Shown here: piece by piece, positions 895 to 6,613 of the stretch
How the letters are laid out: the number at the start of each line of letters is the position of its first letter
Numbering within the stretch: position 1 is the first letter of the stretch
Assembly (NCBI GenBank): GCA_002718035.1
Contig: PBCX01000016.1
Coordinates: 1 to 48,246, forward strand
DNA from: Flavobacteriales bacterium
Lineage (GTDB): Bacteria > Bacteroidota > Bacteroidia > Flavobacteriales > TMED113
Length of the DNA stretch: 48,246 nt
Reading direction: 5' to 3'
The notes under the pieces: model-generated
What the model was told of the DNA's origin: nothing
The model's input: only the letters and a program-made list of their open reading frames with translations
The model's database searches: none
Program-made: the position numbers and the translations under genes

Positions 895-1302
895 ATGGAT
901 CTCGCTACTTTAAATGTTTTATTAAACTCAATTTTAGTTGGAATTATATTAATAACTCAGTTTGTAAACTACCCTTTACTCAAAAAAATAGATCAAAATT
1001 TCGAAATAATTCACAAAGAATATACTAAAAAAATGGGGTACGTAGTAGCACCAATCATGACTCTTGAGGCTTTTGCTGTTTTTTCAATGTACATATATTA
1101 CCCTAAAAACAATAATTTAATACTTATTATGTGCTTAACATTAATTATTTGGTTAAGCACATTTTTTATTCAGGTACCAATACACAAAACGATATCTTTT
1201 AAAAAAAATTCTAAGAAAGTAAAGAAATTGATTACAACAAACTACATTAGGACTATTTCATGGTGCTTTAAATTATACCTTTCTATGTTACTTATTTCAT
1301 AA
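895..1302 (+). CDS. DUF1772-like integral membrane protein
   Basis: A 135-residue protein with about four hydrophobic segments (residues 5-28, 50-67, 76-94 and 117-134). Conserved-looking motifs are QVPIHKTI near residue 93 and NYIRTISWCFKLYLS near the C-terminus. This arrangement (F-QVP-H, then N-IRT-W) resembles small membrane proteins of the DUF1772/anthrone-oxygenase-like group. Its TAA stop shares one base with the next ATG (TAATG), so it is translationally coupled to the following conserved hypothetical. The downstream genes encode a flavin-reductase-like protein and a photolyase-type FAD protein, which suggests a role linked to flavin or light. That role is inference from context. Confidence 0.5.
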   Translation: MDLATLNVLLNSILVGIILITQFVNYPLLKKIDQNFEIIHKEYTKKMGYVVAPIMTLEAFAVFSMYIYYPKNNNLILIMCLTLIIWLSTFFIQVPIHKTISFKKNSKKVKKLITTNYIRTISWCFKLYLSMLLIS

Positions 1303-1724
1303 TGATAATTAATACAACTCATATCGATAAAGAAAAAAAGAAAATTATTAATAATTTGTCTGGTGAAGCCCTGTCCCTATGGGAAAGTTTATTTTTAAAA
1401 CACAAGGGGTCACATAGAATGATAATTGACTTAATGAGTAATGATTTTAAAATTCACATTAAGACCACAAACAACTTGTTATATGCAAATATAGAAATTA
1501 GAAAAAAAGGTATAATTATAAGAGTGCCTTTTAATAATGAGACCATATCGTGGATAATACCTTATCACAAATTAAACATTTATAACTCTAAAAGATTTAG
1601 TATTCATGCTGATGGTAATTTTCTAAAATTTAGAAAAGATAAATACTATGAAATAAATAAAGAATTCGTTCGATCTATTATAGATGAAAAAATAAATTAT
1701 TCTAAAAATTTAGATATACTTTGA
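1302..1724 (+). CDS. Conserved-type hypothetical protein in the flavin/photolyase operon
   Basis: A 140-residue soluble protein with no recognised domain. It is basic and beta-rich in its middle part (IHIKTTNNLLYANIEIRKKG, then the hydrophobic-aromatic string ISWIIPYHKL) and ends in a lysine-rich helix. There is no signal peptide or membrane segment. The start overlaps the preceding stop by one base, and the stop TGA overlaps the TTG start of the flavin-reductase-like gene by four bases. This places it firmly inside the four-gene overlapping set at 895-3276. Function unknown. I do not assign a family. Confidence 0.75.
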   Translation: MIINTTHIDKEKKKIINNLSGEALSLWESLFLKHKGSHRMIIDLMSNDFKIHIKTTNNLLYANIEIRKKGIIIRVPFNNETISWIIPYHKLNIYNSKRFSIHADGNFLKFRKDKYYEINKEFVRSIIDEKINYSKNLDIL

Positions 1725-2200
1725 AAAGAGTTTGGAACATTACAAATCCCGCAATTCATAGTTTAATTTCATTTGATAAAAAAGGAAATTTAAATGCTAA
1801 CATATGTTCCTATGTTAGTGTAATAAGTTTAAAGCCTAAACTTTATATGATTGCAATTGATAAAAAAAGTAAAACACACAGTAATTTACTAGAAAATGAT
1901 TTTTCTATCTTACAAGTTCTAAGCAGAAAAAATATTTCATTAATAAAAATACTAGGAAAAAAAAGCGGAAGAAATTTAAATAAGTTTAACTACTTGCTTT
2001 CTAAGAGATTACTTGGCCAATGGAATAAAAAAAATGTAATAAAAGATTCATGCGGTATTATTTTCTTAAATAAAATAAATGTTTTTGACACAATTGGAGA
2101 TCACACATTATTTGTTTTTAAAATTTTAAAAACAAAAACGATAAGTGAAAGTAATATTTTAACCTTCAATAAATTAATTGATGATAAAATAATTTTATGA
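1721..2200 (+). CDS. Flavin-reductase-like FMN-binding split-barrel protein
   Basis: A 159-residue protein that resembles the flavin reductase-like domain: a short N-terminal beta segment, then NANICSYVSVISLKPKLYMI (residues 25-44), which matches the FMN-binding stretch with small residues followed by a proline and a hydrophobic strand, then KSKTHSNL, corresponding to the usual phosphate-contacting T-N region. It starts at TTG inside the TTGA overlap with the upstream stop. The next in-frame ATG is about residue 43 and would remove the core. The stop overlaps the next gene by four bases (ATGA). The likely role is binding or reducing flavin for its FAD-binding neighbour. The exact substrate cannot be told. 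Confidence 0.65.
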   Translation: MKRVWNITNPAIHSLISFDKKGNLNANICSYVSVISLKPKLYMIAIDKKSKTHSNLLENDFSILQVLSRKNISLIKILGKKSGRNLNKFNYLLSKRLLGQWNKKNVIKDSCGIIFLNKINVFDTIGDHTLFVFKILKTKTISESNILTFNKLIDDKIIL

Positions 2201-3276
2201 AAACAACTTATTCGGAAATAACTAAACTATTAGAAAATATTGATGTAAGTCTTTATGCTAAAAATAGAAACTTTATAGATGGTAATGTAACAAGACTTTC
2301 TCCATATATTTCTAGGGGAATTTTATCAACTAAAGAAGTTTTTTTTGCATTGTTACAAAAAAATATTAACCCAAAAAAAATAGAAAAATTTATTCAAGAA
2401 TTAGCATGGAGAGACTATTGGCAAATAGTGTGGAAAAATAAAAATATTAATGAAGACATAAAAAGAAAACAAGAAGATGTAGAAAATATTGGCACACCAA
2501 AAAATATTATTCAAGCATCAACCGGGGTTAATGTAATTGACAACGCAATTAATGACTTATATGATACGGGCTACGTACACAATCATATCAGAATGTATAT
2601 TGCAAGTATTATTTGTAATATTGGCAAATGCCATTGGAAGGCGCCAGCCAAATGGTTTTATTTTCATCTAATAGATGGTGATTGGGGGAGTAATGCACTT
2701 AGCTGGCAATGGGTTTGTGGAACTAATAGTTCTAAAAAATATATTGCAAACCAAGATAATATTAATAAGTTTTGCTATGATAATCAAAAAAATACTTTTC
2801 TTGACAAAAATTATGCTGATTTATATAAATGTTTAATCCCAAAAGAACTTGAAAAAGTATCGTCACTAAATTTAAAAACCAAATTGCCTTTAAATAATAG
2901 TGTATCAATAGATCAAAAAAAACCTATAATGATATATAATTATTATAATTTAGATCCAGATTGGAGAAAAGAATTAAATGCAAATAGAGTATTGTTACTA
3001 GAGCCTAGTACTTTTCAGGAATATCCAATTAGTGAAAATGTTTTTAATTTTTTTATTAAACTTTCTAAAAATATTAAAAACATTAAAATTGTTGTTTCTG
3101 AGTATAAAGAATTTTATAAAAAATTCGAGAACTGTACAATTTATTATAAAGAACATCCATTAAATAATTATTATAGTGGAATATGTGATAAACGAGATTG
3201 GTTGTTTACAAACCAAAATTATTATCCATCTTTTTTTAAATTTTGGAACGCATCAAAAAAAGAACTATATATTTAA
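2197..3276 (+). CDS. Photolyase/cryptochrome-type FAD-binding domain protein lacking the usual N-terminal domain
   Basis: A 359-residue protein. Residues 20-195 match the helical FAD-binding domain of photolyases and cryptochromes: TRLSPYISRGILS (32-44), ELAWRDYW (68-75), HNHIRMYIAS (128-137) and LIDGDWGSNALSWQWVCGT (158-176). The usual N-terminal alpha/beta antenna-binding domain is absent, because the FAD domain begins almost at residue 1. Instead, residues 240-359 form a separate domain with predicted alternating strands and helices (NRVLLLEPS at 263-271, IKIVVSEYKEF at 296-306). It is the last gene of the overlapping set that also holds a flavin-reductase-like protein. DNA repair and light sensing are both possible. 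The FAD-domain call is firm. Confidence 0.85.
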   Translation: MKTTYSEITKLLENIDVSLYAKNRNFIDGNVTRLSPYISRGILSTKEVFFALLQKNINPKKIEKFIQELAWRDYWQIVWKNKNINEDIKRKQEDVENIGTPKNIIQASTGVNVIDNAINDLYDTGYVHNHIRMYIASIICNIGKCHWKAPAKWFYFHLIDGDWGSNALSWQWVCGTNSSKKYIANQDNINKFCYDNQKNTFLDKNYADLYKCLIPKELEKVSSLNLKTKLPLNNSVSIDQKKPIMIYNYYNLDPDWRKELNANRVLLLEPSTFQEYPISENVFNFFIKLSKNIKNIKIVVSEYKEFYKKFENCTIYYKEHPLNNYYSGICDKRDWLFTNQNYYPSFFKFWNASKKELYI

Positions 3277-5734: not shown

Positions 5735-6613
5735 TTGAAAAAATACAATGTACTAATCGCAGGAGGTTCTGGTTTAATAGGTCAGTGTTTAAAGACTTAC
5801 TTGATTAAATCTAATTACAATGTCAAAATTTTAAGTCGAAACAGAAAATCAAAATATTATTGGAATCCAAAAAAAAATGAACTTGATGCTTCAATTTTAT
5901 CAGAGATTGACTACGTAATTAATCTGTGTGGAAGCAAAATTGATAAACGATGGACAAACAAGGCAAAAAAGGAAATTTATACAAGTAGAATTAATTCTAC
6001 TAAATTTTTGATAAAAAAAATAAATTCAACAAAAACAAAAATTAAAAAATATATCGGTGCATCTGCAATTGGTTACTATGAATATGGTAGAAATTTAAAA
6101 AATGAAAATTCAAAAAAAGGAAGTCATTTTCTCTCTGATATATGTTTCAAATGGGAAAACGAACATAAAAAAATACAAAACATACCAATTTGTATTTTAA
6201 GAATTGGTGTGGTATTGTCGAAAGAAGGGGGAATGCTAAATAAATTACTCTTACCATTTTCATTAAATTTAGGGTCCTCATTAGGGGCTGGATCTCAAAA
6301 AATTTCATGGATTCATATTGAAGATTTATCAAAAATGATGTTTTTTTGTTTAAAAGATGAAATTACTGGAACATTTAATGCTGTTAGTCCAAAACCTGTT
6401 AGTAATCATTTTTTTTCTATAACATTGGCAAAAGTAAAATCTAAATATATATTACTACCAAATATTCCAACTTTTGTTATAAAGATAATCTTTGGAGAAA
6501 TGTCAACAATGATTTTAAACAGCTTGGAAATTTCTAGTAAAAAAATAGAAAATCAAGGATTTTCATTTACATATTCTGAATTAGAAACAGCCTTAAAAAA
6601 AATTATAACTTAA
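5735..6613 (+). CDS. TIGR01777-family NAD(P)-dependent epimerase (SDR)
   Basis: A 292-residue extended-SDR protein. The N-terminus carries the dinucleotide-binding motif LIAGGSGLIGQ (residues 7-17), followed by the family-typical NLCGSKIDKRW and NSTKFLIKKI, then the catalytic-region string ASAIGYYEYG, RIGVVLSKEGGML and GSGSQK-like GAGSQKISWIHIEDL. The C-terminal helical part (FNAVSPKPV, then LPTF-like IPTFVIKIIFGEM) matches TIGR01777 epimerases. It starts at TTG (TTGAAA), and there is no in-frame ATG before the glycine-rich motif. The substrate is not known for this family. The last four bases overlap the end of the convergent SH3-like gene. Confidence 0.88.
   Translation: MKKYNVLIAGGSGLIGQCLKTYLIKSNYNVKILSRNRKSKYYWNPKKNELDASILSEIDYVINLCGSKIDKRWTNKAKKEIYTSRINSTKFLIKKINSTKTKIKKYIGASAIGYYEYGRNLKNENSKKGSHFLSDICFKWENEHKKIQNIPICILRIGVVLSKEGGMLNKLLLPFSLNLGSSLGAGSQKISWIHIEDLSKMMFFCLKDEITGTFNAVSPKPVSNHFFSITLAKVKSKYILLPNIPTFVIKIIFGEMSTMILNSLEISSKKIENQGFSFTYSELETALKKIIT

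Follow-up and report, generated by a model that had tools for sequence, protein, structure and literature searches.

The SPL gene of the window (the whole 48,246-nucleotide stretch of DNA analyzed here) most plausibly encodes a CPD photolyase of the short photolyase-like (SPL) class whose two ordinary domains stand in reversed order, a reading to which we assign a probability of roughly 0.7. The gene is a single open frame of 359 aa (ATG at 2197, stop codon at 3274-3276). Its product belongs to the cryptochrome/photolyase family (CPF), as seen from a match to Pfam FAD_binding_7 (PF03441; residues 65-182; E = 2.5e-22; 79.7 bits against a cut-off of 27) and from structural search with Foldseek. 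The features discussed below are as follows, all on the forward strand.

1302..1724, +: ORF of 140 aa that matches no Pfam family and overlaps the flavin reductase gene; its family occurs near the SPL gene in 13 of 80 loci
1721..2200, +: flavin reductase gene (PF01613, E = 1e-15), likely a co-translated partner, sharing 4 bases (ATGA) with the start of the SPL gene
2185..2187, +: in-frame stop codon TAA, 12 bases ahead of the SPL ATG (from the sequence; open frame of 362 aa)
2197..3276, +: SPL gene, 359 aa, putative permuted two-domain photolyase (open frame, orthologues, AlphaFold2)
2197..2841, +: FAD/catalytic domain, residues 1-215 (PF03441, Foldseek alignment to photolyases over ~205-219 columns, residue conservation)
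2842..2919, +: variable linker, residues ~216-241 (alignment, AlphaFold2 secondary structure)
2920..3267, +: C-terminal alpha/beta domain, residues ~242-357, proposed to be a relocated PF00875-type domain, with an FFKFW helix at its end (fold, profile links)

Domain architecture and distribution

The earlier note had placed the FAD domain at the very start of the protein, and this was borne out: the domain begins within the first 20 residues, with an in-frame stop codon upstream, and the same arrangement was found in 159 ORFs of relatives. When the protein was aligned to NCBIfam photolyase models, model positions ~218-223 fell on residues ~6-20, indicating that the usual first ~200 residues are absent from the N terminus. 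A domain encoded upstream through a frameshift, which had been named beforehand as one of two findings that would speak against this architecture, is ruled out by the TAA at 2185-2187 and the overlapping PF01613 flavin reductase gene at 1721-2200, which occupy that place.

AlphaFold2, run with 75 native sequences, gave a two-domain model of high confidence (mean pLDDT 95.8, pTM 0.93) in which residues 5-210 are all-helical, residues 244-356 form five strands plus helices, and both domains together make up a single rigid body. Modeled in isolation, the C-terminal domain scored 92.1. Residues 240-359 thus constitute a real, separate alpha/beta domain, as the earlier note had proposed. In a Foldseek comparison of the full-length model with photolyases (E = 1.6e-7), the FAD domain alone was aligned, as would be expected of a sequential aligner if the domains are permuted.

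Full-length relatives were common in 99 related genomes, with 44-66% identity across residues 1-357. Because the C-terminal domain is conserved over its full length among these relatives, the architecture is neither a chance product nor an assembly error. The genome collection yielded 542 confirmed candidate stretches encoding a relative, the best 80 of which were essentially full length, and at least 90 residues followed the FAD domain in 158 of the 159 SPL ORFs sampled. What had been taken for an unusual arrangement is instead found widely across the SPL class. More distant relatives, annotated "FAD-binding domain-containing protein," were present in plasmid records; a search for viral relatives found none. 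The window genome (1.26 Mb, 86.8% complete) carries one further photolyase-family gene, of conventional architecture. SPLs 50-53% identical to that of the window were also seen on contigs L051, L057, L070, L082, and L090, whose titles name Opitutales, Rhodobacteraceae, Opitutaceae, Gammaproteobacteria, and Verrucomicrobia. When the phylum around the L090 genome was searched, Bacteroidota genomes came up, so some of these titles may be wrong or the bins contaminated.

Identity of the C-terminal domain

The SPLs of a sister clade, comprising Deinococcus and split-gene members, bear on what the C-terminal domain is. PF00875 matched C-terminal to the FAD domain in the sister SPLs P0005 (residues 300-395, E = 7e-4) and P0008 (E = 1e-3) and in the stand-alone C-domain protein P0007 (E = 2.3e-4), all three under the curated Pfam cut-off of 26.6 bits. 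In hhalign comparisons, Deinococcus-type C-domains scored 95.7% against the N-terminal domains of 63 photolyases (E = 9.7e-9, 135 columns), and 0 of 100 column shuffles came near the real score. The top three matches in an hmmsearch of PDB sequences with these domains were the N-terminal domains of the photolyase/cryptochrome entries 8p4x, 1owl, and 1tez; with a larger sister set, most top matches were again photolyase N-terminal domains. An HMM of sister-clade C-domains (A7), run in six frames on 399 Pseudomonadota genomes, matched 23 of them. At 19 of the 20 loci examined, the match was to a photolyase, in front of its FAD domain, and the remaining locus was a split-type C-domain already used in building the HMM. 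These sequence comparisons make a firm case that the sister-clade domain is the photolyase N-terminal domain placed at the C terminus. Separately, five loci (L208, 564-2913; L212, 522-2904; L216; L217; and L220) contained open photolyase frames 585-794 codons in length, in which the photolyase domains are preceded by a long N-terminal stretch; these may be fusions or open frames in G+C-rich DNA.

The window clade is more diverged than the sister clade, and its C-domain is minimal (~116 residues). Its profile scored 37.5% against the 63 photolyase N-terminal domains (E = 3.5e-4, a pairwise hhalign value that, like the others for this clade, assumes one comparison and is not a database E-value). 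Against a family of three separately encoded C-domains, it scored 85.3% over 106 columns, and against A7 and A5, 50.9% and 42.7%, each over ~105 columns running into the terminal F..FW helix; unrelated families reached at most 2.2%. No single comparison rose above 95%, and trimming shifted the score (6.3% in one version); 0 of 100 column shuffles reached the real scores. Three families that had seemed to be "decoys" with high scores were in fact CPF members or split C-domains. A PF04244 (DPRP)-type identity, the second resemblance that the earlier note had suggested checking, was rejected (hhalign, 0.6%). No direct Pfam match to PF00875 was obtained for the window-clade C-domain.

Structure prediction and structural search gave a divided answer: the separate alpha/beta domain was modeled, with an order of elements compatible with photolyase N-terminal domains, but a Foldseek search of the PDB with the isolated domain returned no significant match (best E = 0.08) and no photolyase in the top 50. 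Taken on the profile comparisons, the window-clade domain is probably the PF00875-type N-terminal domain of photolyases moved to the C terminus. The original suggestion of a relocated antenna domain is therefore firm for the sister SPLs and moderately supported for the window clade. In the window protein, the domain would dock where the N-terminal domain of photolyases normally docks.

The strongest competing explanation is that the C-domain is an unrelated HUP- or Rossmann-like fusion with some other role, for example, nucleotide or partner binding, and that the alpha/beta domain is truly absent, in line with published descriptions. The best Foldseek neighbors of the isolated domain were indeed nucleotidyltransferase and USP-type folds (NadD/PPAT/USP), all with insignificant E-values, and an hmmsearch of PDB sequences with the window-clade profile found no photolyase. 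Nor did this profile give any signal against the C-domains of alphaproteobacterial SPLs (0.3%), whose own profile returned chance-level Rossmann matches only from the PDB. Nevertheless, we consider an unrelated fusion unlikely, since the best links outside the domain's own family are to CPF N-terminal domains and to the C-domains of sister SPLs, with a register that stays consistent through to the terminal F..FW helix, and since those sister C-domains are themselves photolyase N-terminal domains and the FAD domains of the SPL clades have a common ancestry.

Split genes and the history of the SPL class

The SPL class, which includes S. elongatus SePhrC (H6G84_03645) and an R. fascians protein, has been described as lacking the alpha/beta domain, and iron-sulfur cysteines have been reported for an SPL (PMC9178010, PMC9649867). 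In the published scenario, the family is rooted on SPL as the ancestor (PMC9649867, PMC9178010). The seeming lack of an antenna-type domain in SPLs led to the proposal that they are living ancestors of all photolyases and cryptochromes. Judged from its sequence, the window protein is an SPL by the defining features of the class, not by clustering with published SPL sequences. In a tree of FAD domains, SPLs grouped into a single clan (support 0.97; two DPRP-type sequences fell inside it and one sequence fell outside) containing Bacteroidota, alphaproteobacterial, and Deinococcus-plus-split subclades, and the FAD domain comes first in all three. On the simplest reading, the domain-order swap probably arose once in the SPL ancestor, either as a fusion of separate genes in the order FAD-alpha/beta or as a permutation of an already fused gene.

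In three members, each from a different phylum, an FAD-domain gene and a PF00875-type domain gene were found as a pair with a 4-base overlap (ATGA/GTGA):

956-2190, −: split pair in a Bacteroidota genome (L120)
1396-2687: split pair on a Deinococcus QL22 plasmid (L150)
around 2257, reverse complement: split pair in a Pseudomonadota genome (L155)

Such pairs are rare (1 of 396 Bacteroidota genomes), and sequencing frameshifts are conceivable; however, a 4-base overlap occurring independently in three cases speaks for genuine gene pairs. The pairs suggest a natural two-subunit photolyase, in which omitting one subunit could show what the alpha/beta domain contributes (antenna, DNA binding, or stability).

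We lean toward the broader view that all members of the SPL class are circularly permuted photolyases, some of them made as catalytic and antenna-type subunits from two overlapping genes, and that the rooting of the family needs revisiting. If so, the proposed domain-poor ancestors would not be domain-poor. The chief structural reason for regarding SPLs as primitive would lose weight if the domain sits at the opposite terminus, and domain order would become a usable character for rooting. The opposite history, in which SPLs keep an ancestral FAD-only state, ordinary photolyases gained the N-terminal alpha/beta domain later, and the SPL C-domain was added independently from a photolyase N-terminal domain, would agree with the published rooting (PMC9649867, PMC9178010), and the split pairs can be read as independent domain recruitment. 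We judge it improbable given that every SPL sampled has a C-terminal domain or is accompanied by a second gene encoding one, none being plainly FAD-only, and that, with a homologous domain on either side of the FAD domain, an order swap is simpler than two recruitments. The SPL class itself is already known (Xu et al. 2021, doi 10.1093/molbev/msab191). Permuted photolyases, the identity of the SPL C-domain, and split pairs were not found in the open-access literature; subscription papers, including the founding SPL paper, lay outside the scope of this search.

Active site, gene neighborhood, and known systems

Residues of the window SPL were mapped by alignment onto the Anacystis photolyase 1tez, whose E283, W286, N349, M353, D380, D382, N386, W392, W367, and W390 correspond to E68, W71, N129, M133, D160, D162, N166, W172, W147, and W170, respectively. 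We take these 1tez residues to serve in FAD binding, in CPD binding and splitting, and in the Trp triad (W367 and W390 being the inner triad Trp). All of the mapped positions were invariant or nearly so across 138 Bacteroidota SPLs, and they were conserved in the other SPL clades too. The FAD- and substrate-binding residues of the window protein are thus class I/III CPD-like. Two positions differ: R350 is replaced by a conserved histidine (H130) in almost every SPL, and the distal triad Trp W314 is lost, being V95 in the window protein. The faint resemblance to iron-sulfur photolyases that had been noted did not hold up, as the CxxC...C cluster cysteines are absent from the window clade; they are present in Deinococcus and split-gene members, and the SPL class does not require them.

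These conserved residues, together with established photolyase chemistry, lead us to propose that blue/UV-A light would excite the reduced FAD, which would pass an electron to the cyclobutane dimer; the dimer would split and the electron would be returned. As the photoreduction chain lacks its distal Trp, it may be mainly the flavin reductase from the gene just upstream that keeps the flavin reduced. Binding of an antenna chromophore by the minimal C-domain of the window clade is doubtful. That the protein is a light sensor or cryptochrome-like regulator instead of a repair enzyme, as its incomplete Trp chain and its frequent sharing of an operon with full-length photolyase-family proteins might hint, is very unlikely, given that the CPD-binding and catalytic residues are all invariant, that no gene for a signaling partner was seen nearby, and that SPLs have been described as CPD repair enzymes (PMC9649867).

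Of 80 related loci, 30 had a flavin reductase gene on the same strand no more than 3 kb from the SPL gene, and 43 had a DPRP-type photolyase gene downstream on the same strand. PF04244, the domain of prokaryotic 6-4 photolyases, was matched by a representative DPRP partner at E = 1.8e-46; SPLs are thus often paired with a DPRP-type (6-4-like) photolyase, and such an operon would cover both major UV lesions. A PF00875-type partner was present in 34 loci (on the same strand in 32 and within 60 nt in 31). Genes for DUF2805 (34/80 loci) and DUF2452 (15/80) proteins also recur beside SPL/photolyase genes. Elsewhere in the window, positions 895-1302 encode a membrane protein with weak similarity to anthrone oxygenase (PF08592, under the cut-off), and 8 of 80 loci have a member of its family near the SPL gene. 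A gene for a TIGR01777 oxidoreductase (5735-6613) also lies near the SPL gene.

Compared with known systems, the window protein resembles the SPL class in being short, in its class I/III CPD-like catalytic residues, and in having no alpha/beta domain at the N terminus. Unlike SPLs as described, it has a C-terminal alpha/beta domain, apparently that same domain relocated, and unlike the SPL with reported iron-sulfur cysteines, its clade is without them. It shares the FAD fold and catalytic residues of class I/III CPD photolyases (PF00875 plus PF03441; 1owl, 1tez, and 4u63) but differs from them in its reversed domain order, H130 in place of R350, the missing distal triad Trp, and a C-domain of ~116 residues. 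The FeS-BCP/prokaryotic 6-4 photolyases (PF04244, DPRP) are of the same superfamily; however, the window protein has neither a PF04244-like domain nor the four cluster cysteines, and its active-site residues are CPD-type, not 6-4-type. Photolyase N-terminal domains belong to the same broad fold class as HUP domains. HUP-class domains (PPAT/NadD, UspA) are the best Foldseek neighbors of the isolated C-domain, although these matches are insignificant and come with no link in sequence.
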